From Verrucomicrobiaceae bacterium (GTDB taxonomy: Bacteria > Verrucomicrobiota > Verrucomicrobiia > Verrucomicrobiales > Verrucomicrobiaceae), in NCBI GenBank assembly GCA_016795485.1, contig JAEUHM010000043.1:62001-126000 (forward strand): a stretch of DNA of 64,000 bases. The letters are read 5' to 3'. The first letter of the stretch is position 1. Each line of letters opens with the position of its first letter. The notes beneath the pieces were generated by a model. The model saw nothing but the letters and a program-made list of their open reading frames with translations, had not been told where the DNA came from and made no database searches. This document shows, piece by piece, positions 9,843 through 45,100 of this stretch. A program made the translations under genes and the position numbers.

Positions 9843-10984
9843 ATGAACATCATTCAGAAATCTCGCGCGGCCATTCGGAGTGAGCTTGAGGTCGCCCCTG
9901 CACTACGTCGATTCGGCAGCGGTTGGATCAGCGGTGTTTTGGGTCTAGTGCTCGGTATAGCGAGTCTGTCACTCGTGCTTTCCATCCGTTACCCTGGGAT
10001 TTTGGGTGCTGTCGAACTGAATGCGTTCAAATCAGCGACGTGGTTTCGAGTTGTTCTGTTGCTCATTATGCTCGCGGCCTACGTCAGTGCAGTGCTGAGC
10101 TTGATTGTGCGGGAAAATCGAACGCTCGGCACTGCTGGATTGATCGTGACGTTGCTCGCCTCATTGCTGGGCGGCTCTCGTGCGAATGAAGCACTGCCAG
10201 ACTACACATCTGCTTATGCGGGTTTGGACTTTTTGTGCTCAATGTGCTGTTCACCGGTGTGCTTTTTGTTCCGCTGGAGACCATCTTCCCCAAACGGGCA
10301 GATCAACCCCTGTTCCGCACTGAGTGGCGCGAGGATCTGTTTTACTACCTCGTCAGTAGCATGGCGGTGCAGTTGATCACTTGGCTGGCGTTTATGCCGG
10401 CGAGGACTCTTTTTGCGGCGACTTCTTGGACAGATTTCCGCGCCTGGGTAGCTGGGCTGCCTTTTCTGATTCAAGTCGTAGCGATCATGTTTCTCACGGA
10501 TCTCGTTCAATACTGGGTGCATCGTGCCTTCCACCGCATCCCGTTCCTCTGGAGGTTCCACGCAGTCCACCACTCCGCAAAAGCCATGGACTGGATCGCC
10601 GGAGCTCGGATGCACTTTCTGGAAATCCTGGCGCTCCGTGGCACCACCGTGTTCCCCATGATGCTCCTTGGCTTTCACCAGAACGCCGTTGGGGCCTATA
10701 TTTTCATGGTCTACCTGTGGTCTACTTTTGTACATGCCAACATAGGCTGGAAACTGAAGTGGATGGAGCCTTGGCTCGTCACCCCTCGGTTTCATCACTG
10801 GCATCATGGGATTGAGAAGGAGGCCATCGATGTGAACTTCTCCATTCACTTCCCTTGGCTGGACAAAGTGTTCGGCACCCATCACATGCCGGATGACCGT
10901 TGGCCCGAGGGGTACGGCATAGGCGGTCACCCCGTGCCCACCGGCTATTGGAAGCAGCTTTTGTATCCGTTTCGCAAGAAGTAG
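9843..10984 (+). pseudogene. fatty acid hydroxylase / sterol desaturase family gene with a frameshift
   Basis: Two frames join into one family member. The first (9843 to about 10234) has an N-terminal membrane part ending at TSAYAGLD. The second (from about 10235) continues with VLNVLFTGVLFVPLE and carries the three histidine clusters of the di-iron hydroxylase family: HRAFHR, HAVHH and HHWHH. A single missing T in the run TTTTT at 10230-10234 explains the break: with six T the codons read LDFFVLNVL without interruption. Members hydroxylate or desaturate lipids at the membrane. The gene may be a real pseudogene, a slippage-decoded gene, or the victim of a homopolymer sequencing error. Everything downstream, including all iron ligands, is intact, so the loss is recent or artificial. 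Confidence 0.82.
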
Positions 10985-32927: not shown

Positions 32928-35498
32928 TTATTCGCCGGAAGATGCTGGGAATCGTCGTTCAAAATCGCGCCAGAGTCTCTCAATCGCTTCCTCGGGCTGT
33001 TCAAGCATTAGACTCTCGCGAATCTTGGATGCGTAGATCCCAAATGAAAACGGACTGACCACCGGGACTTTCATGAGCCGCCATTCCATCGCGGCGCAAT
33101 CAGCGAGAAAACTCAAGGCACGGTTGGTATCGAGAAATGTGTGTGTTGCTTCCTTGATGGCCTGAACCATTACTGGATGCTCAGGCTCATGGTCTCTCAG
33201 CACATTGAATAGTATGTCCGCGCTAAAGCGCAGTTGTTTGATCTTCCGCTGCTGACCGGGGAGTTGACGTGGAACCATCAGAGCTGTTTGGGCAACCCCC
33301 CGGAACTGCCACCGGACGAGATCGCTTTCGTCCAGAGCTGCTTTGAGGCTAGAGAGGGCATTTTCGGCGATAAACAAGTCCTGCCAGCCATCGAGTTCCA
33401 GGTCCTGAAAGTCCTTCACGGTCAACATGAAGCCGTAGTCATCAACGGTGACCAATGCGTTGCCGCCAACCATTAGTTTAAGTCTGTGGGCGATGATGCG
33501 CGACAACGCATTGTTAGCACTGCGTCCAATCAGCGAATGAAAAAAGAAATGAATCAACTCCTCGCCATGTTCTTGGAATCGCTCAATGAGGAAAAGTCCA
33601 TCGCGCGGGATGAGCGAAACAAGCTTTTGGTGACGGCAATGCCGAACAATCGCTGCAGCGTTTGAAAGCGAGAGGTGGAGCGACTCAACCAGCCAGTCTG
33701 CAATCACCGAGTTGGGGTTGCCCTGCTCAAGCATCTCGGAGAGCCGAGTTCGCAACAACGTCACCTCGCGACACAAGCCAGATGATAGCGGCATCTTGTT
33801 CGCATTCCAGGCTGGCACTGTCGGCAGCATTCCACGCGCCTCTTGAACGTAGATCTCGCTCAAGCCCGTCTCCATGAGCCTTAAAGTGCGGCCAGCTAAC
33901 ACAAAGATGTCACCCAACTTGAGACCCTTAGCAAAACTCTCCTCAACCTGCCCTAGTCGACGATTGCCAAGCACAACATTCACCATTCCATCGCTGTGGA
34001 TGGTCCCAACGTTCACAAGATAGTCCCGCTGAACACGAGGGGATGGTATGGAGAGTAACTGAGTGGCCTCATCCAACACCACTTTGCCAAAAGTCTCTGC
34101 ATACTGCTGCTCAAGGGATTGACCGCCACCACGAAGATATCGGAGCACACGATCAAACTCTGCATCAGTCAGCGCTGAAAAAGGCGCGGCTCGTCTGACA
34201 GTCTCAAGCGCTCTAGTTTTGGTCCACGTGCCTTCGATCGCCATTCCGACCAAATGCTGAGCTAGCACATCCAGCGGCGCATCCATGATCCGCACTTCGT
34301 CTAGTTGATTACGGCGAGTCATCTCCGCACAGACCGCGCATTCCATGAGGTCGTTGATGTTGGTGGCGACCAGGACACCGTGGCTGTCCTCATGCACGCT
34401 ATGTCCGCTTCTTCCGATGCGCTGGAGAGCTCTTGAGATGCCCTTCGGCGTTGAAATCATTACCACGCCATCCACTGCACCAATATCGATGCCCAGTTCG
34501 AGACTAGTGCTGCAGACGACAGCGCGCAGTTGACCCATTTTGAGACGATCCTCAACATCTTGGCGCACTTCCCGATCCAGCGATGAGTGATGCGCTTCAA
34601 TCTGCGATGCGAGCTTTGGTAGTGCTCCCTTCAACCTCAGCGCTAGGCTCTCAGTGGTGCTCCGCGTGTTGCAGAAAATGATCACCGACTGCTTCTGCTC
34701 CACAAGTCTCGCGATATCGTCCAAGACGCGTGCGGCCGTCCATCCAGATGGCGGATACGGATCTCGCTTCAGCGGGGAGAGCACTTCAACTCGGCGTTTT
34801 CGTGGAGAACTCGCTTGGACAATCTCGCAAGACCTGCCATTTCCACAGAGAAGTCGCGCTAGCAGTCCCAGAGGTGCAGCTGTGGCGCTCAAGCCGATAC
34901 GAGTGAGTGGGTGACGTGCTTCCATCCGCTCCAACGAGATCGCTAGATGTGGGCCACGCTTGTTTTCGGCTATGGCGTGGAGCTCGTCGACGATGATGAA
35001 CCTCGTTTTTGACAGAGCCTCTTTCCATGAGAGCTGCGGGAGCAGTATCGCGAGTGACTCCGGCGTGGTCATCAGGATGTGCGGTGGCTTGCGGCGCATT
35101 TTGTCTCGCTCACTTGCAGTCGTGTCGCCAGTACGCAGCCCGATACGGATCACATCGCTCAATCCTAGCGCTTGAATGGGCCGCGCTAGGTTCTTCTCCA
35201 TGTCGTAAGTCAGTGCACGCAGCGGTGACACGTAGATCGCCCGAACGCCAGGAGTCTGGATCGTGTCCGTATCCACCTCACGCAGCAAGTGGTGCAGCAC
35301 GCCAAGAAAACCAGCCAACGTCTTGCCGCTGCCTGTCGGTGATGAAAGCAACACCGACCTACCCTGAATCACATGAGGAACACAGCCCAATTGGGCCTCT
35401 GTTGGAGCGGCAAACGTGCTCTGAAACCATTCCGCCAGCCGCGGATGGAGACACTCGCTGAGAGTCTGCACCAAATCTCCGCTGCTGCCAATTGGCAT
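32928..35498 (-). CDS. Lhr-type ATP-dependent DEAD/DEAH helicase
   Basis: The product is 856 aa from the ATG at 35498. Motifs run in order: Q-motif region PTEAQ, Walker A SSPTGSGKTLAG (about 52-63), TPESLAI, VDELHAIAENKRG (DEVH-like box), SATAAP, and motif VI IGRSGHS. The C-terminal half (beyond about residue 430) has the winged-helix and Lhr-core beta-barrel domains and the Leu-rich terminal region. Lhr-core helicases unwind RNA:DNA hybrids and are linked to DNA repair; several are called ligase-associated. No ligase or exonuclease partner is in the window. The start overlaps the stop of the sugar isomerase gene (TGATG), so the two are coupled. Confidence 0.92.
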   Translation of the reverse strand: MPIGSSGDLVQTLSECLHPRLAEWFQSTFAAPTEAQLGCVPHVIQGRSVLLSSPTGSGKTLAGFLGVLHHLLREVDTDTIQTPGVRAIYVSPLRALTYDMEKNLARPIQALGLSDVIRIGLRTGDTTASERDKMRRKPPHILMTTPESLAILLPQLSWKEALSKTRFIIVDELHAIAENKRGPHLAISLERMEARHPLTRIGLSATAAPLGLLARLLCGNGRSCEIVQASSPRKRRVEVLSPLKRDPYPPSGWTAARVLDDIARLVEQKQSVIIFCNTRSTTESLALRLKGALPKLASQIEAHHSSLDREVRQDVEDRLKMGQLRAVVCSTSLELGIDIGAVDGVVMISTPKGISRALQRIGRSGHSVHEDSHGVLVATNINDLMECAVCAEMTRRNQLDEVRIMDAPLDVLAQHLVGMAIEGTWTKTRALETVRRAAPFSALTDAEFDRVLRYLRGGGQSLEQQYAETFGKVVLDEATQLLSIPSPRVQRDYLVNVGTIHSDGMVNVVLGNRRLGQVEESFAKGLKLGDIFVLAGRTLRLMETGLSEIYVQEARGMLPTVPAWNANKMPLSSGLCREVTLLRTRLSEMLEQGNPNSVIADWLVESLHLSLSNAAAIVRHCRHQKLVSLIPRDGLFLIERFQEHGEELIHFFFHSLIGRSANNALSRIIAHRLKLMVGGNALVTVDDYGFMLTVKDFQDLELDGWQDLFIAENALSSLKAALDESDLVRWQFRGVAQTALMVPRQLPGQQRKIKQLRFSADILFNVLRDHEPEHPVMVQAIKEATHTFLDTNRALSFLADCAAMEWRLMKVPVVSPFSFGIYASKIRESLMLEQPEEAIERLWRDFERRFPASSGE

Positions 35499-36310
35499 CA
35501 CGCCATGACTTTTTTCAGGTACTCGATGCTTCTTTGGGCGATGACATCCGGGCCGAGATCATACTTGAATACCTCGGTGCTAAGCCACCCTGAATAGCCT
35601 GACTTTCGGAGAGCAGCGATGATAGGCTCGTATTTCACCTCACCCATGCCAGGCCCCAGGAGATTGGGATCGTTGGTGTGGAAGTGCACGGTCCAGTCTT
35701 TGCTTTCTTCAATGATCTGAGGAATCGGTTTTGGCTCGTCGGACATCGCCTTTACGTCCAGGTGAAGCTTGCAGGCGGGATGGTCCACTAGTTTGCAGAA
35801 TCGGATCGTCTCCTCCGCGGTGTTGAGAAAGTTCGTTTCCGTACGACCCAGAGGCTCCATAGCAATCGTGACGCCGTATTTTCCTGCCTCCTCGGCCACC
35901 GCGCGCACTACCTCAGCTCCACGGGCAAAAGCCTCCTCATACGGCCACTCCGGGAGCGTCGTCCGTGCCTTGGGGCTGCCCCAGACCATGATCTTCCCGC
36001 CAGCCATGCCGCAAAGGCGAGCTAGCTTCTGGCCCAACTTTGCTGACTCACGACGTTGCACCGCATCCGGCGAGGTAATGTGCAGGAATGTGGGCCTTGA
36101 GAGAATCCAGTGGAAGCCGATGACTTCAATGCCGGCGTCTTTGGCTCCTTTGACCACGGAAATCATATCCGCATCCGTGAGTTGCCGAGGGTCCTCATGC
36201 AGGGTGAATGGGGCGATCTCCACGCCTTCAAAACCGGCAGCGGCGATTCGTTCGCACGTTTGGGCAAAGGGCAACTGGCCCCAGTGTTCATTGCAAATAG
36301 CGTAGCGCAT
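35498..36310 (-). CDS. sugar phosphate isomerase/epimerase (TIM barrel)
   Basis: The product is 270 aa. The family (AP endonuclease 2-like TIM barrel) is shown by FEGVEIAPF, GFHWILS, IAMEPLGRTETNFLNT with a metal-binding glutamate (about 150), LHLDVKAMSD (Asp/His) and the final WLSTEVFKYD (Glu). Such enzymes isomerise or epimerise sugars or cyclitols. It has no signal peptide. The gene lies upstream of the helicase gene with overlapping stop and start codons, an unexpected pairing that probably reflects genome economy. An ATG at 36322 would add four residues. Confidence 0.88.
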   Translation of the reverse strand: MRYAICNEHWGQLPFAQTCERIAAAGFEGVEIAPFTLHEDPRQLTDADMISVVKGAKDAGIEVIGFHWILSRPTFLHITSPDAVQRRESAKLGQKLARLCGMAGGKIMVWGSPKARTTLPEWPYEEAFARGAEVVRAVAEEAGKYGVTIAMEPLGRTETNFLNTAEETIRFCKLVDHPACKLHLDVKAMSDEPKPIPQIIEESKDWTVHFHTNDPNLLGPGMGEVKYEPIIAALRKSGYSGWLSTEVFKYDLGPDVIAQRSIEYLKKVMA

Positions 36311-36400
36311 AGCGGAGCGCATCTAAGGCCGGACTGCGTGACTGAAAAGCAGATTTGCACAGACAGCGGCCCCGGCTAGCCTCCGGCACGACACGCCACC

Positions 36401-37876
36401 ATGCCCAAGTACATCGTCACCATCGGTCTGGAAGTACACGCCCAGCTCAACACGCGCTCCAAAATGTTCTGTGCGTGTCCCGTCGGCTATGGCGCTGAAC
36501 CCAATACCCAGACTTGCCCCGTTTGCCTTGGGCTGCCTGGTGCCTTGCCTGTGCTAAATATTGGCGCGATCGAGAAAACGATTCTCACCGGCCTGATGCT
36601 CGACTGCCGCACCCCAGAGATCAGCAAATGGGATCGGAAGAACTACTTCTATCCCGACATGCCGAAGAACTATCAGACGAGCCAGTTTGATCTGCCTTTG
36701 TGCATTGGTGGAGGTGTGCCGCTGTATGATTTCGCGTATCCAAAAGACGCACAAAAGACCATCGCCAAACCAGGCAAGGTCGTGAATCTCACGCGTATCC
36801 ATTTGGAGGAAGACGTTGGCAAGAGCACGCACCATGAGAAGTTCACCACCCTCGACTTCAATCGAGCAGGCTCGCCCCTGATGGAAATCGTCAGCGAGCC
36901 TGAGATCGACAGTGCGGAAGAAGCGGTGGCTTATCTCAACAGCCTGCGGCAAATCTTGATTTACGGCGGTGTGAGCGATGCTGACATGGAGAAAGGTCAG
37001 ATGCGCGCCGACGTGAACATTTCCGTGCGGCCTGAGGGACAAAAAGAGCTTGGGGTCAAAATCGAGCTCAAGAACATCAACTCCATGAGTGCCATCCGCC
37101 GTGCGATCAAAGCAGAGACGGAGCGCCAGATCGATGTGCTGGAAGGACGTCATCCTACAGACAAGGCGCTCGTGCAAAGCACTCGGCGTTGGAACGACGA
37201 CACCGGAGAAACCGAACTGATGCGCTCGAAAGAAGATGCGCACGATTATCGCTACTTCCCGTGCCCCGATCTCATTCCGGTCAAGACGGCGCCCATCATT
37301 GAGCGCATGAAGTCGCTACGTCCGGAGTTGCCCCACGAGAAGTGTGCGCGTTTCGAGAAGGATTTCGGCCTTACAGCATACGATTCGAACGTTCTTGCGA
37401 GCGAACAAGCACTTGCGGCTTATTTTGAGAAGTCCGTCAGTGCTGCACCCGATGCTCCCGCCAAAAAGATCGCCAACTGGATCATCAACGAGCTTCTTGG
37501 CCGCTTGAATGAGGCAGGTCAAACCATCACCGAGTGCACATTGGAGCCCGGCAACATTGGCGAGCTGGTAGCGCTCGTAGAAGCTGGTAAAATCAGCAGC
37601 AATCAGGCCAAGGAAGTCTTCGGTGAGCTATTCACGAACGGTGGCACGCCGGCGGAAATCGTTAAGGCCAAAGGATTTGAGCAAGTCAGTGATACCGGAG
37701 CCCTCGAGGCCATGGTGGATCAGATTCTCGCCAGCGCTCCGGACAAAGTGGCCGAAGTCAAAGGCGGCAATGAGAAAGCACTGAACTGGTTTACGGGTCA
37801 GGCCATGAAGATGAGCGGCGGTAAGGCGAATCCCAAGCTCGTTACTGAGATCGTGCGGAAAAAAGTGCTCGGTTGA
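36401..37876 (+). CDS. gatB: Asp-tRNA(Asn)/Glu-tRNA(Gln) amidotransferase subunit B
   Basis: The product is 491 aa, the usual length. It has the GatB signatures GLEVHAQLNTRSKMFC at the start, DRKNYFYPDMPKNYQ near residue 80, and GSPLMEIVSEPE near residue 165, plus the C-terminal YqeY-like tail. Together with GatA and GatC it converts Glu-tRNA(Gln) and Asp-tRNA(Asn) to the amide forms. gatA and gatC are not next to it. The gene is divergent from the sugar isomerase and convergent with the enolase-like gene, ending 3 bp before that gene's stop. Confidence 0.97.
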   Translation: MPKYIVTIGLEVHAQLNTRSKMFCACPVGYGAEPNTQTCPVCLGLPGALPVLNIGAIEKTILTGLMLDCRTPEISKWDRKNYFYPDMPKNYQTSQFDLPLCIGGGVPLYDFAYPKDAQKTIAKPGKVVNLTRIHLEEDVGKSTHHEKFTTLDFNRAGSPLMEIVSEPEIDSAEEAVAYLNSLRQILIYGGVSDADMEKGQMRADVNISVRPEGQKELGVKIELKNINSMSAIRRAIKAETERQIDVLEGRHPTDKALVQSTRRWNDDTGETELMRSKEDAHDYRYFPCPDLIPVKTAPIIERMKSLRPELPHEKCARFEKDFGLTAYDSNVLASEQALAAYFEKSVSAAPDAPAKKIANWIINELLGRLNEAGQTITECTLEPGNIGELVALVEAGKISSNQAKEVFGELFTNGGTPAEIVKAKGFEQVSDTGALEAMVDQILASAPDKVAEVKGGNEKALNWFTGQAMKMSGGKANPKLVTEIVRKKVLG

Positions 37877-37879
37877 CGC

Positions 37880-39172
37880 TTACGGCAGCGAGATACCGGC
37901 CTCTGCAAAGAGCTTTGCGCCTTTGAACCTCGCGCTGCTTCCGAGTTGACGCTGGATGCGGAGCACTTCGTTCCACTTGGCCATGCGCTCACTGCGACTG
38001 AACGATCCCACCTTCAACTGGCCCGCGTTGGTCGCTACAGCGAGGTGGGAAATGAACGCGTCCTCGGTCTCACCGGAGCGTGCAGAAACCACCGGTAGCC
38101 AGCCAGCCCTCTGCGTGCACTCGATGGCACGGAGTGTCTCGGTCACCGTGCCGATTTGGTTCAGCTTGATGAGCACCGCGTTGGCAGTTTGCTCGGCAAC
38201 ACCACGCTCGATCCGCTGAAGATTGGTGGTGAAGTGATCGTCGCCAATCAACTGACAACGGCTTCCGATAGCCCCACGCACTTGCTTCCAGCCTTCCCAG
38301 TCATCTTCAGCCATGGGATCCTCAATGGACACAATGGGGTAGTTCTGCACCCAGTTGATCATGAGTTCAGCAAACTCATGCGAGCGAAACCGCCGTTGCT
38401 CTAACCCGAGGGTGTAGAATCCGCCTTCGTATAAGTCCGTAGCAGCAATGTCCAACGAGATGCCCACGTCTTTGCCAGGTGCATAACCGACGAGTTCAAT
38501 CGCTGCCAGTAGAGCCTCAAAAACATCTTCATTGCGATCAAAAACAGGCCAGTAGCCACCTTCGTCTGCTACTCCGGCCAGCAGGCCGCGTTTCCGCATC
38601 ACGTCTCCAGCCGCGTGGAAGACATTGAATGTCATCTCCAGTGTTTCCTCGTAGCTGGAGGCCGATAGCGCCATGATCATGAAGTCTTGGATGTCGATCC
38701 TGCCTTGAGCGTGCTTGCCGCCGCCGAAAATCTGAATCTCAGGCAGTGGAAGCAGTGTTCCGGTACCTCCTGTGAGCGATTCATGAAGCGGAATGCCCCG
38801 CACTTTGGCCGCTGCATTTGCAACACTCATGCTGACACCGAGAATCGCATTTGCGCCGAGCCTCGATTTGCCTGGTGTGCTATCCAAACGAATCATTGCT
38901 TCATCGAGACCTGTTTGGTCAAAAACATCACGCCCCACCACAGCGTCAGCGATCTCATGTTTCACGTGGGACAATGCGTTCAGCACGGACTTGCCGCGAA
39001 ACCGACTGCGATCTCCATCCCTTAGTTCGAGCGCTTCGTGATGTCCTGTGGAAGCACCCGAAGGAACGAGACCGTGGCCGCTAATCCCATTCTCAACAGT
39101 TGCGATGACCTCAAGCGTGGGATTTCCACGGCTATCAAAAATCTGAAGAGCGTCCAGCGAGGTGATTTTCAT
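37880..39172 (-). CDS. enolase-like paralogue with altered active site
   Basis: The product is 430 aa and aligns along its whole length with enolase. Conserved: SGAST (Ser39-type loop), the HA of the substrate loop (His154), DEGGY (Glu204), metal ligands Asp241, Glu284 and Asp311, catalytic Lys336 (LIKLNQIG), Arg365 and Lys387. Altered: the loop SHRSGETED of enolases reads SARSGETED (Ala364 replaces the active-site histidine) and QEFM reads QDFM (Asp163 replaces the glutamate). The missing histidine binds the phosphorylated substrate in true enolases, so the substrate may differ. It is the last gene of a four-gene minus-strand operon with two oxidoreductases and a kinase, and overlaps the kinase gene by 38 bp. 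A moonlighting second enolase remains possible. Confidence 0.88.
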   Translation of the reverse strand: MKITSLDALQIFDSRGNPTLEVIATVENGISGHGLVPSGASTGHHEALELRDGDRSRFRGKSVLNALSHVKHEIADAVVGRDVFDQTGLDEAMIRLDSTPGKSRLGANAILGVSMSVANAAAKVRGIPLHESLTGGTGTLLPLPEIQIFGGGKHAQGRIDIQDFMIMALSASSYEETLEMTFNVFHAAGDVMRKRGLLAGVADEGGYWPVFDRNEDVFEALLAAIELVGYAPGKDVGISLDIAATDLYEGGFYTLGLEQRRFRSHEFAELMINWVQNYPIVSIEDPMAEDDWEGWKQVRGAIGSRCQLIGDDHFTTNLQRIERGVAEQTANAVLIKLNQIGTVTETLRAIECTQRAGWLPVVSARSGETEDAFISHLAVATNAGQLKVGSFSRSERMAKWNEVLRIQRQLGSSARFKGAKLFAEAGISLP

Positions 39173-40112
39173 AGAGATGAAGGAGTGCCGCAATGTTCTG
39201 TGGCGGCTTCGGCAGATGAGCAAGGCAGAACTCAGTAATGATGCCCTGCTGTCTGGCATCAAGATACTCCACTGGACTCTTTCCATGCACACGAGCCAAC
39301 ATCAGGCATAGAACGAGCAGCACAGTTCTCTCACTGGTGTCCTCAGTCACTTGCGCGTGATACGAGTTCCAAAAAGACTCCACCAGCTTTGCTGTCTCCG
39401 AGTGAAGTAGCGCCTTGAGAAACAAATGGGTTAGCAGAAACGCTGTATCAAACGCAGGATCACCATACCAAGCGCACTCCGCATCGAGAACGACCAAGCG
39501 CTCGCGATTCACGAGAAGATTCTTTGGGCTGAAGTCGCCATGCACGAGTGCCACTTTGGTTTCGCTCAACCGACGTGCTTCCGCTTGAAGAATCGCGGCA
39601 ACTTCAGGCACTCGCTCGGCTGTCTTGAGCAGGTATGGCTCGATTCGCAGTGAGTGAAAATTGTCGTCGGTTGCAAATCGACCCGCGAGTTCACGATGGC
39701 ACCATGATGCAGCATGCAGGCGGCCCAGAACTTCACCCGCCTGCTCAGCGATTGCCACATCCCACGTGCCATTCATCAACTCCGACTTCCAGACACGGAG
39801 TTCATTACCGAGATACTCCATCGCAAACCAATCTTCCCCCGTTGCGATCACTTGTGGTACCGATTCGGGCACAATCGTTGCAGCGAACTCCAGGTAGGCC
39901 TGCTCTACTTTGTTACGACCCACATCGGCGAACCAGTCGTCCCTCACTTTGAGCTTCGGCAGCGCTGCTTTGATGACCAAGTCGACGCTTGTTGTTGTGA
40001 CTCGCACGATGTCGCTGGAAACTCCACCACTAAGCGGCTGGACCGCTGCTGTTTCACCCGGTTTTAGCAAGCCGACGGAAACGAGACGAGACAGATAATC
40101 GTCAGTGCTCAC
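39135..40112 (-). CDS. APH/choline-kinase-fold phosphotransferase
   Basis: The product is 325 aa from a GTG at 40112. The kinase core is clear: LVHGDFSPKNLLV (catalytic Asp/Asn loop HGDxxxxN, about residue 205-217) and VLDAECAWYGDPAFD (metal-binding IDxE-like segment, about 222-236). The family phosphorylates small molecules such as choline, methylthioribose, homoserine or aminoglycosides. It is the third gene of the operon; seven bases separate its start from the upstream oxidoreductase stop. Context suggests a sugar or sugar-acid kinase whose product passes to the enolase-like enzyme. An antibiotic-modifying role is unlikely because there is no mobile-element context. Confidence 0.85.
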   Translation of the reverse strand: MSTDDYLSRLVSVGLLKPGETAAVQPLSGGVSSDIVRVTTTSVDLVIKAALPKLKVRDDWFADVGRNKVEQAYLEFAATIVPESVPQVIATGEDWFAMEYLGNELRVWKSELMNGTWDVAIAEQAGEVLGRLHAASWCHRELAGRFATDDNFHSLRIEPYLLKTAERVPEVAAILQAEARRLSETKVALVHGDFSPKNLLVNRERLVVLDAECAWYGDPAFDTAFLLTHLFLKALLHSETAKLVESFWNSYHAQVTEDTSERTVLLVLCLMLARVHGKSPVEYLDARQQGIITEFCLAHLPKPPQNIAALLHLYENHLAGRSSDF

Positions 40113-40119
40113 TAGCGGC

Positions 40120-41070
40120 TCAAATCTCAGCGAGAATGTTCTTCACATGAACGATCTCACCTTCGCGTTCGCGGCTGCGGATGCCGGCGATGATGACCGC
40201 CATCAGCTCCACCGTTTCCTCGAAGGGCAGGGGACGTTCACCTGTGTGGAGCATCTCCACGAACGCCACTAACTGCCCGCGGAATGCGTTGTAGGTGTCG
40301 CAAAGCTTCAGCGCTAGGTCGCCCTTCGTGCCATAAAGATGAACGGCACCAAAGCTACCGTAAGCGTCATGCACCGCACCGATCGTCAATCTCACTCCAG
40401 AACGGTGCGTGATGTGCATGATAACACCGCCTGCGTCTGAAAGTGCCTGCACGGTGAGAAACCCTTGCCCAAGAAGTGGTTCTACTGCTTCAAGAGCGTG
40501 GATTCCGTATCGCTCCCACGTCTTGCAGGTGAAACTCGTGATCCAGCGCAAGTCACCAAGATGCGCCATTTGGTCAGCGCTCAATCGCATCTCGGGAGCG
40601 TATCTCATGCCACTCGTGGAGAGCAGCGTGTGTCCCTCTGCGTGCCATTTCACAAACTGTCGCAACTCGTCAATGGTGGTGGCCATCGGCTTATCCACAA
40701 AAACGGGCAAGCCCGCTTCAATAAAAGGTTTGGTGCGGCGGACGTGATCTGTGCCGTCGTCAGTGGCGATCACCACCGCATCGACATGCCCAATAACGTC
40801 TTCTGGCCTTGGCACCACGTGCTCGATAAGGCTTGCAGCAGCGACCTTGGGCGCGTCTTCTGGATCATCTGTCCAAATGTGGGTCACCCGTGCTCCTTGG
40901 ATGCGAATGCTCTCCAAGGGTTGCTTTCCCATGTAAGTAATGATGCCTGCGTAAGGGCACAAGGCAGCCATCTGAGCTGGATCGTAGCCATTGATGATGC
41001 CGCTCCACGAGTAAGGGTGACCATTGCCCTCAATCATGCCTAACATGGCAAGTCGGAAATCCTTCTTCAT
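40120..41070 (-). CDS. Gfo/Idh/MocA family oxidoreductase
   Basis: The product is 316 aa. The N-terminal Rossmann part contains LAMLGMIEGNGHPYSW, an unusual start without the strict GxGxxG, and AVVIATDDGTDHV; the conserved catalytic lysine is in VFVDKPMA (family EKP). The C-terminal alpha/beta domain has the usual YGIHALEAVEPLL with the histidine of the family active site. It oxidises or reduces a sugar or cyclitol with NAD(P). The ATG overlaps the stop of the other oxidoreductase gene by 4 bp. Two different Gfo/Idh enzymes in a row suggest successive oxidation or epimerisation steps. Confidence 0.86.
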   Translation of the reverse strand: MKKDFRLAMLGMIEGNGHPYSWSGIINGYDPAQMAALCPYAGIITYMGKQPLESIRIQGARVTHIWTDDPEDAPKVAAASLIEHVVPRPEDVIGHVDAVVIATDDGTDHVRRTKPFIEAGLPVFVDKPMATTIDELRQFVKWHAEGHTLLSTSGMRYAPEMRLSADQMAHLGDLRWITSFTCKTWERYGIHALEAVEPLLGQGFLTVQALSDAGGVIMHITHRSGVRLTIGAVHDAYGSFGAVHLYGTKGDLALKLCDTYNAFRGQLVAFVEMLHTGERPLPFEETVELMAVIIAGIRSREREGEIVHVKNILAEI

Positions 41071-42044
41071 GCTAGTTGAATGAGCTCGTGGGTTCGCACT
41101 GACTCAAGCGCTGCTTGATTGAACTTGAGGGTTTGTGCGGCTTCGTCGAACGAACTCAACGCATGAGGTTTACCCTCTAGAGCGTCGAGGAACGCGTTGG
41201 CCTGCTGGGTGAATAACTCGTCGCGTTCAAGGGGTTCGGTCGTATGCCATTCCCATGTCGTTTGTCCTCGCAGCATGCTGCCCCACCGCTGAAGGTGGCT
41301 TTCGATCACCACGCTGCCTTTTTCTCCGTGGAAGTGGAACACGGTCTCGCTTGGAGTTTGAAACTGATTCAGCGCGTAGTTCACGAGCACATCTCCATGC
41401 CGTGCCGCTACGTTAACTGTGTCCTCTACGGTGACGCCCTCCAGCACTTGGTGACTGGCATCGGCGAACAACTGAGAGCACGGACCGATGATCCATTCCA
41501 TAACGTTAGCCACATGAGTGAGTGCATCTTGGATAGCACCACCGCCGTGATCATGCCTTGCGTAGTAGATCTCTCGATATGCGGGCCTGAAGGTCGGAAA
41601 ATGTTGTCCACAGACAATGCTGGCATGTTTGATAGCTCCAATGGCGCCTGAGCGCACAAACTCACGCGCCTCTGCCACCCAAGGCATCATATGGTAGACA
41701 TAGGCAACACAAACAACTCGGTCTCCGATCGCCTCGCGGACCTCGGGCACCATGCTGGTGTCGATAGCGAGTGGCTTCTCAATGAGGAGGTGCTTTCCTT
41801 GCCGAAGCAAGGTCAGCGCCATCGCCAAGTGGAGATGAGCCGGTGTGCAGATCACGACGGCGTCTACCTCGGACGATGCTTCTTGCATGGATGAGTGAGT
41901 GGGAACGCCGTAGCGTTCCCTCATGGTCGCAAGCAGCGCCTCATTCGTGTCGCAGGCACTGACAGTGCAGCGTTTGGTGTTCAAAAAGCAGCGCAAGTGG
42001 CGTTCGCCAATGCTGCCGCAGCCGATAACGAGAATGGATGGCAT
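41067..42044 (-). CDS. Gfo/Idh/MocA family oxidoreductase
   Basis: The product is 325 aa. The NAD(P)-binding motif GCGSIGERH starts at residue 8, the catalytic lysine is in LLIEKPLAID (about 95), and HDHGGGAIQDALTHVANVMEW carries the family's later Asp and His (about 172-192). It is the first gene of the operon, 77 bp downstream of the giant dehydrogenase gene on the same strand. The substrate is likely a sugar or inositol derivative. It differs clearly from the second oxidoreductase and is not a recent duplicate. Confidence 0.9.
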   Translation of the reverse strand: MPSILVIGCGSIGERHLRCFLNTKRCTVSACDTNEALLATMRERYGVPTHSSMQEASSEVDAVVICTPAHLHLAMALTLLRQGKHLLIEKPLAIDTSMVPEVREAIGDRVVCVAYVYHMMPWVAEAREFVRSGAIGAIKHASIVCGQHFPTFRPAYREIYYARHDHGGGAIQDALTHVANVMEWIIGPCSQLFADASHQVLEGVTVEDTVNVAARHGDVLVNYALNQFQTPSETVFHFHGEKGSVVIESHLQRWGSMLRGQTTWEWHTTEPLERDELFTQQANAFLDALEGKPHALSSFDEAAQTLKFNQAALESVRTHELIQLA

Positions 42045-42120
42045 GGAATGTGAAGCGGTTAAGCCAAAGAAGGCTCAAGATCAAACGCACCCCGTGCCGG
42101 ATTCCATCGCTGCCCTTGCT

Positions 42121-45100
42121 CTACTTCAAACTCATCAAATACGTGAGTAGATCACGGGCTTGCTCATCAGTGAGCGCATCAAGCAGTCCCTCTGGCATGA
42201 GACTCCGGCGGATGTAGCTAGTGCGCCGCACTTCTTGCTTGGGAATGCGGCGGTCAGATGCGCCCGGTTGGCGCACGATGAATGCGCTCTTGTCCTCACT
42301 CACAAAGAATCCATCCACAAGGTCGCCGTTCTCCAGCTCAACACGGAAAATGCGGTAACCTGGCTCCATGGCCGCGTTTGGGGTCAGGATGTTACGGAGA
42401 ACGGCTTCTAGTCCCATCGCGCCAGCACTGCTCAAGTTGGGGCCGATTTGACCTCCGGTGTTTCCAATCTGATGGCACGCGATGCAGATGGCGCTCAATG
42501 CTTTGCCTTTGGCAATGTCGCCGGGTGTTTTGACCAAATCGGTGAGGTGGTGAAACTTTTTGTCCAACGCAGCAGCTTGCTCGGCACTGAGGATGGGTGG
42601 GTAGTCCGTGGTCTTGGCGAGTCGGACACCTTTCTGGAAGGTTTTGCTATCGGTGGCAAAGGTTTCGCGGCTACGATCGAACGAGCTGCGGATCTCTCCT
42701 GCGGTCCGTTCCACTCTCCAAACACGAAACTCAGCCATCATGCCCGCAGTGCCTTTTTTCGGGCCGCTCCAGCCGATTCGGCAGTTCTCCCACTTCAGCG
42801 GTGCCGGTACCGTTGAGACGGCGTCCTGCTCACCGTTTTGGTAGATCTTGATGATGCCCTTTGCATCGCGAGTTACGGCAAGGTGAGTCCAAAGCTCTGG
42901 CGTCATTGGCTTATTTGCTACCGCCACATCATGCAGTTCACGTCCAGCGAACACACGGAACTTTGATTGGAAGAAGTTCATCTCACAGCCCCCTGGCACA
43001 CCGAGGATGTCATCTTCATTCCCGATGCCTGGGGCGAGTTTGACCCAGGTTTCTACGGTGAATGGACCATCAAGTGTGATCTTCGAGTCAATCCAAGCTT
43101 CTTCACTGCCATCAAAGGCAAGAACATCATGAAACACATGGCCCAGACTGGACATGAGCTTGTTTAGTTCGGAATCGTTGCCGAGCACTAACGACAATCT
43201 TTCTGCCGTGGGGCCGTCAAGGTCACTGGTGGGGAGTCGTTTTTCAGCAAGAGCCGCCACGATCGCTTTGGCACCGGGTTTGGTGGCAGAAAGAGTGTTC
43301 AATGCTGAGCGCTGTTGAGCGCTTGTTAGGCTAGAGTAGAGCTTGAAGAGCTGCTCCGAAGCGTTCGGGTTCTTGGAGGCTGTCAGTGCTGCTAGGGCGT
43401 CATCTCGAAGCAATGTTGGACCCGATTGAACGATCTCACTGAACAAATCGGTGGCACTGCTCCGCAACTCACGAAGCGCAAGCAACAGCGAACGGGTGCT
43501 TTCCATCGCTGCGGGCGTTTCTTTATCTGCCTTTCTCGCCATCGCTACGAGATCGTCCTCCAAAGATGTGAGTTGGAACTCACCGATCAGTCGCACGCTC
43601 AACTCACGCTCATCATTACTGCCGTTCAGCAGGTTCTTGGCGGCGTCACTGATCAAAGCTGAGATTTTGGCAGGATCGAGCTTGGTCCTCTGGGCGAGCA
43701 ACTTCTCTGCAATGACAGCCCGCGACTTGGGGTTCGATAGCAGCGCCTTCAAGGCATCTCCGCAGCCAATTTCGCTGGGAAACTGAGCAAGACGGAGAAG
43801 CTCCTCGTCATTGGGCGCACGATCTAGTTGAGGAAGGAGTTTGGCTACTCGTGAGGCGCTGCTCTTTGGTTCTAGAGCAAGAGATGCAAGCACCAAGGCT
43901 TCCACAGGCAATTTCGCGGCGGCTTGGGAATCCAGGAACTTTGCGACGACATCGGGATGACGCTCCAGGAACATGCGGACGAGAAAGCGCTCGAACTCGC
44001 GGTCATAGGCCTCGCGCACGGGGAGCTGCTTGTTGCCACGCGTGGAGGCGATGGTGAGGCCGTTGGTGAGGCTCGGTTTGGCGAAGGCGAGGAGTGTGGA
44101 GATGTTTTGATCGGACAGATTCCGACCGATCTGACTGATCTGAGCGAACTTACTGGTGGCGAGATACTCCTGTGCAGCAAAATGAGTCTGCGGGAGTTGT
44201 TTGCGGTCTTGAAGCTCCTGCCATGCGAGATGCGCCCTCCCAACAGGCTCAGCGCCAAGCATCGCGACGAGTGTGTCCGTGGCCTGCTTCGTGAAATCGG
44301 GGATTTCGTTTGTAGTTCGGGCTTTAGCCTGCGCTTCGACGCTCTCGGAACGGGCTGAAGCCCGAACTACGAACTTTGGCTTCACGCGCCAGATGCGGCC
44401 ACGGGTCTTGTCGCGGTCAGGATGCGCACGCGGCACCTCGTTGTGGGAGATGATCTTGTTGTACCAATCAACGATATAGATGCAGCCATCTGGGCCATTG
44501 GTAAGGGCGACAGGGCGGAAAAAGGGATCCTCGCAGGTGACCAGATCAGCAAGCTGGGCAAGCTTCCAATAGGCACCATCGCGTTGCATGGCGATGGTTT
44601 GAATCTTCGAGATGATGGGATTGGCGACGGCCATGGTGAGGTCGCTCGTAGTTCGGGCTTTAGCCCGTCCATCGTCGCTTTCAGAACGGGCTGAAGCCCG
44701 AACTACAAGCGATCCTGATTCGATAAACGCTAACCCACTCAATCCCGTGCCGCCCATGCGGAACTCGGCCTGGGGTGGGAAGTCGGGTTGGTAGCTTTTC
44801 TTCAGCGCCTCCATTCCGCCTGGGTAGTAGGCGTATTCGTGGAAGGGCATGACTGGATAGCCGTAGTCGTTCGCTTCTTGGATGAAGCACTCGCCTTCAC
44901 CTGAGATGACCAGGCCCCAAATGTTGTTTGGGCCGAGGCTGGTCATTTCAAAGTCGCTGCCATCAGGACGGAAGCGGGCCATGCCGCATTTTGGGTACTC
45001 GACGACGACATCGCTGCCGGGTTTGTGGACCTTACTAGTGTTGAAAAGGCCCTGCGCCATCCAGATCCAGCCGCCGGGGGCTCGTGTGAACTGATGCGGA

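Follow-up and report, generated by a model that had tools for sequence, protein, structure and literature searches.

What does an enolase do once two residues that are constant among canonical enolases have been replaced, and which of the genes beside it share in that task? The question arises from a 64,000-nucleotide stretch of the genome of a Verrucomicrobiaceae bacterium (the window; the genome comprises 6.5 megabases (Mb) in 61 contigs), in which four minus-strand genes between positions 37,880 and 42,044 code for two Gfo/Idh-type oxidoreductases, a small-molecule kinase of the APH fold and an enolase with an altered active site. An original prediction, made from the window alone, placed all four in one candidate pathway. 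Comparisons across bacterial genomes indicate that the altered enolase belongs to a subfamily separate from canonical enolases, that the APH-fold kinase is its true partner, and that the two oxidoreductases can be judged to lie outside the kinase-enolase system. Very probably, the kinase and then the enolase act on one hydroxy acid. The features concerned, in window coordinates, are:

37880..39172, minus strand: altered enolase, 430 amino acids; a proposed 2-phospho-2,3-dihydroxy acid dehydratase (Pfam, tree, alignment, model)
38081..38083, minus strand: codon for Ala364, where canonical enolases have His (position derived from the ATG at 39172, in agreement with the motif match G000:C26:100060-100086)
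38684..38686, minus strand: codon for Asp163, where canonical enolases have Glu (position derived from the same ATG)
39135..40112, minus strand: APH-fold small-molecule kinase, 325 amino acids; a proposed hydroxy-acid 2-kinase (Pfam/NCBIfam, co-occurrence, model)
40120..41070, minus strand: Gfo2, a short Gfo/Idh-type oxidoreductase, 316 amino acids (open reading frame list, Pfam, relatives' regions)
41067..42044, minus strand: Gfo1, a Gfo/Idh-type oxidoreductase, 325 amino acids (open reading frame list, Pfam, relatives' regions)

The open reading frame coordinates confirm the four genes and the spacing first described for them. Gfo1 and Gfo2 overlap by 4 base pairs (bp), a 7-bp gap separates Gfo2 from the kinase, and the kinase and enolase genes overlap by 38 bp if the enolase starts at 39172. 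The enolase frame is open from 37880 to 39292, and the ATG at 39172 is its likeliest start, giving the protein MKITSLDALQIFDSRGNPT. Pfam recognizes GFO_IDH_MocA in both oxidoreductases, APH in the kinase (64.6 bits against a cut-off of 23.2), and Enolase_N (160.8 bits) and Enolase_C (305.9 bits) in the altered enolase.

One objection would be that the window holds the genome's only enolase and that Ala364 is common in housekeeping enolases. Neither is the case. A second, canonical enolase, which reaches 436.6 bits where the window copy reaches 307.5, is present on a different contig (G000:C3:222059-222916), and Ala364 is found in none of 31 canonical enolases, 30 of them from carrier genomes and one from a viral-collection contig. 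At least two enolase matches are present in all 32 carrier genomes searched, the further matches of G297 being fragments on other contigs. A scan of viral contigs with enolase returned one match, a canonical enolase; it lies at a contig edge (L005:1-1287), and the genes that follow look prophage-like by eye.

Alignment bears out the residues that the original prediction named as kept or lost. The window enolase retains Lys336, Glu204, Asp241, Glu284, Asp311, Arg365, Ser366, Lys387 and His154, and has Asp at 163 and Ala at 364 in place of the canonical Glu and His; we take the residue at 364 to sit by the leaving hydroxyl in enolase. To place these changes in a family, altered enolases were collected by searching DNA for sequences that encode VSARSGETED, a motif that turns up in at least 116 stretches across several bacterial phyla; Ala364 is present in this set by construction, and Ser-type members are missed. 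Asp163 occurs in all 101 distinct altered enolases of at least 380 residues and Glu in all 31 canonical enolases, while the other catalytic residues checked (metal, phosphate, carboxylate and base) are conserved in 100–101 of the 101. Further shifts relative to canonical enolases occur at positions 147, 150, 202, 208, 376 and 388, and the loop-1 residue Ser38 is replaced by Ala in 58 of the 101. In a study of Mycobacterium tuberculosis enolase, Glu163, Glu204, Lys335 and His154 are given as catalytic (PMC10619443).

In an unrooted tree that excludes the motif columns, a single branch with a Shimodaira–Hasegawa-like approximate likelihood ratio (SH-aLRT) support of 100 parts 50 of the 101 Ala-type sequences from the 31 canonical enolases. 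The model of the window protein (mean predicted local distance difference test score, pLDDT, 92.4) has an ordinary enolase fold; its best structural match is M. tuberculosis enolase (7cll; Z 59.1, root-mean-square deviation 1.3 over 422 residues, 44% identity), and identities range from 40 to 49% among the 50 structural matches listed. The altered enolase has both domains, the fold, the lysine base, the metal ligands and the phosphate and carboxylate residues in common with phosphopyruvate hydratase (EC 4.2.1.11; TIGR01060, PF03952 and PF00113). It departs from that enzyme in Asp163 and in Ala (or Ser) at 364, which break the Glu163/Glu204/Lys336/His364 set, in its position on the other side of the tree, and in its regular partner kinase. 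The suggestion that this is a paralogue with a changed active site, probably acting on something other than 2-phosphoglycerate, gains support from the replacement of two positions invariant in the canonical set, and another substrate is very likely. One relative, a genome counted with the kinase only in the motif search, encodes an enolase that retains Asp163 and carries Ser at 364; because of this case, the subfamily rule may be loss of the His rather than Ala itself.

Three lines of evidence tie the altered enolase to the kinase. First, of 92 testable loci, drawn from several phyla, 78 have a homologue of the window kinase directly upstream in the same orientation (adjacency in L025 and L070 was counted from coordinates), and another five have it elsewhere in the locus. 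The loci are pieces of at most 8 kilobases (kb), many of them cut, with genes called by a custom script rather than a standard gene finder; 110 of the 116 contain an Ala-enolase frame of more than 120 amino acids, L006 brings these to 111, and 19 with fewer than 700 upstream bases were set aside. Exactly one kinase match is present in 29 of 30 genomes chosen from altered-enolase loci, and in L147 the kinase is on another contig than the enolase. Second, the two are inherited together: among 115 relatives including the window genome, 17 have kinase and motif, one the kinase only, two the motif only and 95 neither (Fisher p 3e-17). The kinase-only genome is the one with the Ser364 enolase, and one of the motif-only enolases begins at a contig end. 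The other motif-only case (L237:4337-4924, genome G323) is a 196-residue open frame with no kinase near, possibly a relic of a lost pair. In G369, the kinase and the motif match lie on separate contigs. Third, pairwise distances over 29 genomes correlate between kinase and altered enolase (rho 0.87) far more closely than between kinase and canonical enolase (rho 0.20); the partial correlation given the canonical enolase is likewise 0.87, and none of 1000 permutations is as high. By these comparisons, the pair is a unit that evolves apart from the species tree, and the cooperation of enolase and kinase foreseen in the original prediction is supported.

The kinase itself is a member of the APH family (PF01636) by score and by its HGD-x-SPKN catalytic stretch. 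Its model (mean pLDDT 95.3) has 5-methylthioribose kinase as the closest Foldseek matches, with a template modelling (TM) score of 0.81 on the query and 18% identity. It resembles that enzyme and other APH-fold small-molecule kinases in fold and catalytic stretch, but falls far below the 5-methylthioribose kinase cut-off (TIGR01767; 63.2 of 275 bits) and has invariant basic residues of its own, R66, K109, R156, K233 and R274 (25 sequences), which may bind an acid. With the glycerate kinases of class I (PF02595), class II or MOFRL (PF05161) and class III (PMC2063504), the window kinase would have in common only the proposed reaction type, phosphorylation of glycerate dependent on adenosine triphosphate (ATP). 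Searches of Pfam and NCBIfam gave no match of the window kinase to the class I and MOFRL models at E 0.001, and carriers have those enzymes in addition: class I in 16 of 32, MOFRL in 14 and at least one of them in 29.

Whether the locus degrades a sugar acid or makes a metabolite was left undecided in the original prediction; the neighbouring genes favor degradation. In the nearest relatives, the pair stands beside an HpaI-type aldolase gene or fragment, an aldo/keto reductase, a PhyH-type oxygenase or VOC proteins. Tabulation of 110 loci finds, at distances of up to 6.5 kb from the altered enolase, 2-hydroxyacid dehydrogenase genes in 21, SDR genes in 21, FAH-type hydrolase genes in 17, HpaI in five and IlvD-type dehydratases in five. 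Many of these labels come by eye or from neighbor seeds taken from altered-enolase loci; NCBIfam and Pfam checks covered 40 proteins of other loci. NCBIfam names FAH-type examples 2,4-didehydro-3-deoxy-L-rhamnonate hydrolase (354.4 and 330.7 bits, cut-off 500), an HpaI example 4-hydroxy-2-oxoheptanedioate aldolase (291.8 bits, cut-off 368.8) and an IlvD-type example L-arabinonate dehydratase (859.6 bits, cut-off 882), and UxuA-type dehydratases also occur. A gene of nine sugar-acid families lies within 6.5 kb in 16 of 28 long altered-enolase loci and 0 of 20 canonical-enolase loci, the former count being biased upward because the seeds came from the same altered-enolase loci. Outside the nine-family count, SDR genes are found in 12 of 28 against 1 of 20 loci and LacI genes in 8 of 28 against 2 of 20.

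In the 12 loci without a sugar-acid gene, ten neighbor proteins of eight loci were tested with Pfam, and all but one protein each from L129 and L152 fall in unrelated families or none. The adjacent genes tested in L125, L130, L131 and L151 belong to radical SAM, ABC-2, MreB, PNPOx and MgtC families, with one in no family; none is a phosphatase or an aldolase, phosphatases having been sought only among the ten Pfam-tested proteins. In 32 genomes, the 70 kb on either side of the kinase contain no pyruvate kinase gene; the nearest is ~77 kb away, in G306.

Several other genes were observed beside the pair. In L129 (10411-14666, Acidobacteriaceae), a gene of the gluconate 2-dehydrogenase subunit 3 family, which is outside the neighbor seed set, adjoins the kinase, with two genes of 581 amino acids beyond it, a hint of sugar-acid oxidation. 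A racemase gene neighbors the pair in two cases, too few to use: L006 (by eye) and L152 (opposite strand, Lar_N by Pfam, 72.2 bits). In L124, from a close relative, a match to subclass B3 metallo-beta-lactamases (10010-10846, minus strand; 305.4 bits against an NCBIfam cut-off of 240) lies directly upstream of the kinase, and by eye similar proteins precede it in L227 and L230. An extradiol-dioxygenase-like gene follows the altered enolase in a Streptomyces and a Variovorax locus (L133:17562-18563, HpaD 289.6 bits, below cut-off; L132:5599-6603, by eye). Finally, a second MOFRL-type glycerate kinase match lies ~6 kb from the kinase-enolase operon of G302 (C17:66731-67036).

We propose that the kinase and the altered enolase make up one two-step catabolic unit. 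The kinase would phosphorylate a small 2,3-dihydroxy acid at its C2 hydroxyl; the altered enolase, with its metal sites, lysine base and phosphate and carboxylate grips kept, would then eliminate water to yield a phosphoenol acid. Because the phosphate, carboxylate and two-metal grips are unchanged, a 2-phospho acid is the expected ligand, and the kinase would supply its 2-phosphate. Since some pairs adjoin only unrelated genes among those tested and pyruvate kinase genes are absent from the surrounding 70 kb, the product should enter central metabolism directly, with phosphoenolpyruvate (PEP) the obvious candidate. With a classical glycerate kinase in 29 of the 32 carriers and a further enolase match in every one, D-glycerate needs no second route, which leaves L-glycerate as the simplest substrate. 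L-glycerate would thus be converted to 2-phospho-L-glycerate and on to PEP, a mirror-image entry to lower glycolysis for L-glycerate or L-glyceraldehyde left by aldolase or diketo-acid hydrolase cleavage of sugar acids. Depending on the sugar, such routes can yield either enantiomer of glycerate or glyceraldehyde. We infer the order of the steps, the phosphorylation site, the substrate and product, and the activity of both enzymes on the proposed compounds, from sequences and models; the whole proposal, with L-glycerate as substrate, has in our estimate a little under an even chance of being correct.

Several observations weigh against this proposal. SDRs and D-2-hydroxyacid dehydrogenases are the commonest recognized non-kinase neighbors (21 of 110 loci each), and since the latter family makes D-isomers, its frequency does not point to L-glycerate. 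The nine-family count carries the upward bias described above. Nine of the 92 testable loci have no kinase in their 8-kb piece, the kinase is in the region but non-adjacent in the long regions L132, L133 and L143, and position 364 can be Ser. The operons of L136, L138, L140, L142 and L143 contain an FAH hydrolase and SDRs with no dehydratase recognized, which fits a larger sugar acid. Sequence does not distinguish a pocket for an inverted C2 from one for a longer chain at C3, and the substrate may be larger.

The most probable alternative builds on these last points. The pair could be an ATP-driven sugar-acid dehydratase, in which a C4–C6 aldonate receives a phosphate at C2 and then loses water, becoming the enol phosphate of a 2-keto-3-deoxy acid; hydrolysis of the enol phosphate would be followed by HpaI aldolase cleavage, or by oxidation and cleavage by an FAH-type hydrolase. 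Ala364 and Asp163 would make room for C4 and beyond, and the smaller size of both residues, close to the leaving hydroxyl, would suit a larger substrate. The five operons that lack a recognized dehydratase agree with this alternative. However, dedicated dehydratase genes are present in at least eight loci with the pair (IlvD-type in five, UxuA-like in L010 and L011, MR/MLE-type in L025), and the pairs of L125, L130, L131 and L151 adjoin only unrelated genes among those tested, with no pyruvate kinase gene near. We consider a sugar-acid dehydratase unlikely, if by no means far-fetched.

A pathway of four enzymes, in which oxidation by the two Gfo/Idh proteins supplies the kinase and enolase, is the reading with which the locus was first described, and it has not been borne out. 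The tight spacing suits it, as does the ~10 kb that separates the Gfo pair from the kinase-enolase pair in L225, and the four window genes may be co-transcribed; a promoter scan of 37500-42400 found zero sigma-70-like sites (1.8 expected in shuffles), a result scarcely informative for this phylum. However, the Gfo genes are adjacent to the pair in none of 12 regions read in relatives (12 fetched of the 17 relatives with the kinase besides the window genome), and in 28 long loci from other genomes the 6.5 kb to either side of the altered enolase contain no gene resembling Gfo1 or Gfo2. Of 114 other relatives, 45 encode a Gfo2 of 68–83% identity and 17 the kinase. The four-gene arrangement is observed in the window genome only. 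On this distribution and adjacency the Gfo genes were rejected as members of the system, and the four-enzyme pathway is improbable.

The two oxidoreductases have company of their own in relatives. Gfo1 is recognized alongside Gfo2 in 8 of 11 Gfo2 regions read, and an HpaI-type aldolase and an SDR follow Gfo2 in five of the 11, with other genes following in six (the L225 aldolase was tested, the other four assigned by eye). This Gfo1-Gfo2-HpaI-SDR cluster is perhaps a separate catabolic cluster for a sugar. A kelch mutarotase-like gene stands beside it in L225 and L217, with a sodium/solute symporter also in L225, and the HpaI-type protein of L225 has a 67% identical counterpart on contig C14 of the window genome. 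Near the window operon, an AP_endonuc_2 TIM-barrel protein (35498-36322, minus strand) has keto-sugar epimerases as its best NCBIfam matches, below cut-off, and a 69% identical homologue adjoins Gfo2 in L221.

A pair that handles D-glycerate, as a non-homologous glycerate kinase with an enolase isozyme of altered kinetics, is more improbable still. NCBIfam places the altered enolase in phosphopyruvate hydratase (519.9 bits, cut-off 300), 2-hydroxyacid dehydrogenases are frequent neighbors, and three of the 32 carriers (G292, G295, G315) have no classical glycerate kinase match, leaving some room. Against it stand the glycerate kinases of the other 29 carriers, the further enolase matches of all 32 and the replacement of both otherwise invariant positions; yeast enolase mutants at the positions matching 163 and 364 are nearly inactive. 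Most unlikely of all is a biosynthetic homologue making a phosphorylated or phosphonate building block. Its model would be the carboxyphosphonoenolpyruvate synthase of phosphinothricin biosynthesis, which is likewise homologous to enolase and acts on a different substrate. In L074 the kinase does adjoin a gene of the isocitrate-lyase/PEP-mutase superfamily, but the highest score of that gene is for methylisocitrate lyase (207.8 bits, under its cut-off), and the recognized neighbors of the pair look catabolic (importers, LacI regulators, aldolases, hydrolases), no systematic search for phosphonate genes having been made.

In two papers, 2-phospho-L-glycerate appears as an alternative substrate of a cytidylyltransferase (PMC12275187, PMC13228409), and one names a supplier and states that cellular levels are unknown (PMC13228409). 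A search of open-licence literature by title and abstract start, a weak negative, found among the papers listed none on the kinase-enolase pair, an L-glycerate 2-kinase or L-glycerate breakdown. Although the enzyme family is known, none of the listed papers describes this variant and its regular partner kinase. Misannotation is likely, since the NCBIfam equivalog model for phosphopyruvate hydratase accepts all three altered enolases tested (519.9, 521.4 and 403.4 bits against 300).

To our knowledge, few enzymes of central metabolism are regarded as being as uniform as enolase. If a sister subfamily is widespread, with a fixed change in its active site and a regular partner kinase, the true enolase family would gain a second function. 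Tentatively, and at somewhat short of even chances, many phyla may possess a mirror-image lower glycolysis, in which an APH-fold L-glycerate 2-kinase and a second enolase lead to PEP, hidden by an annotation model that accepts the second protein as enolase. If true, the finding would supply a route for the breakdown of an acid, L-glycerate being the best guess, and a correction of automatic annotation.

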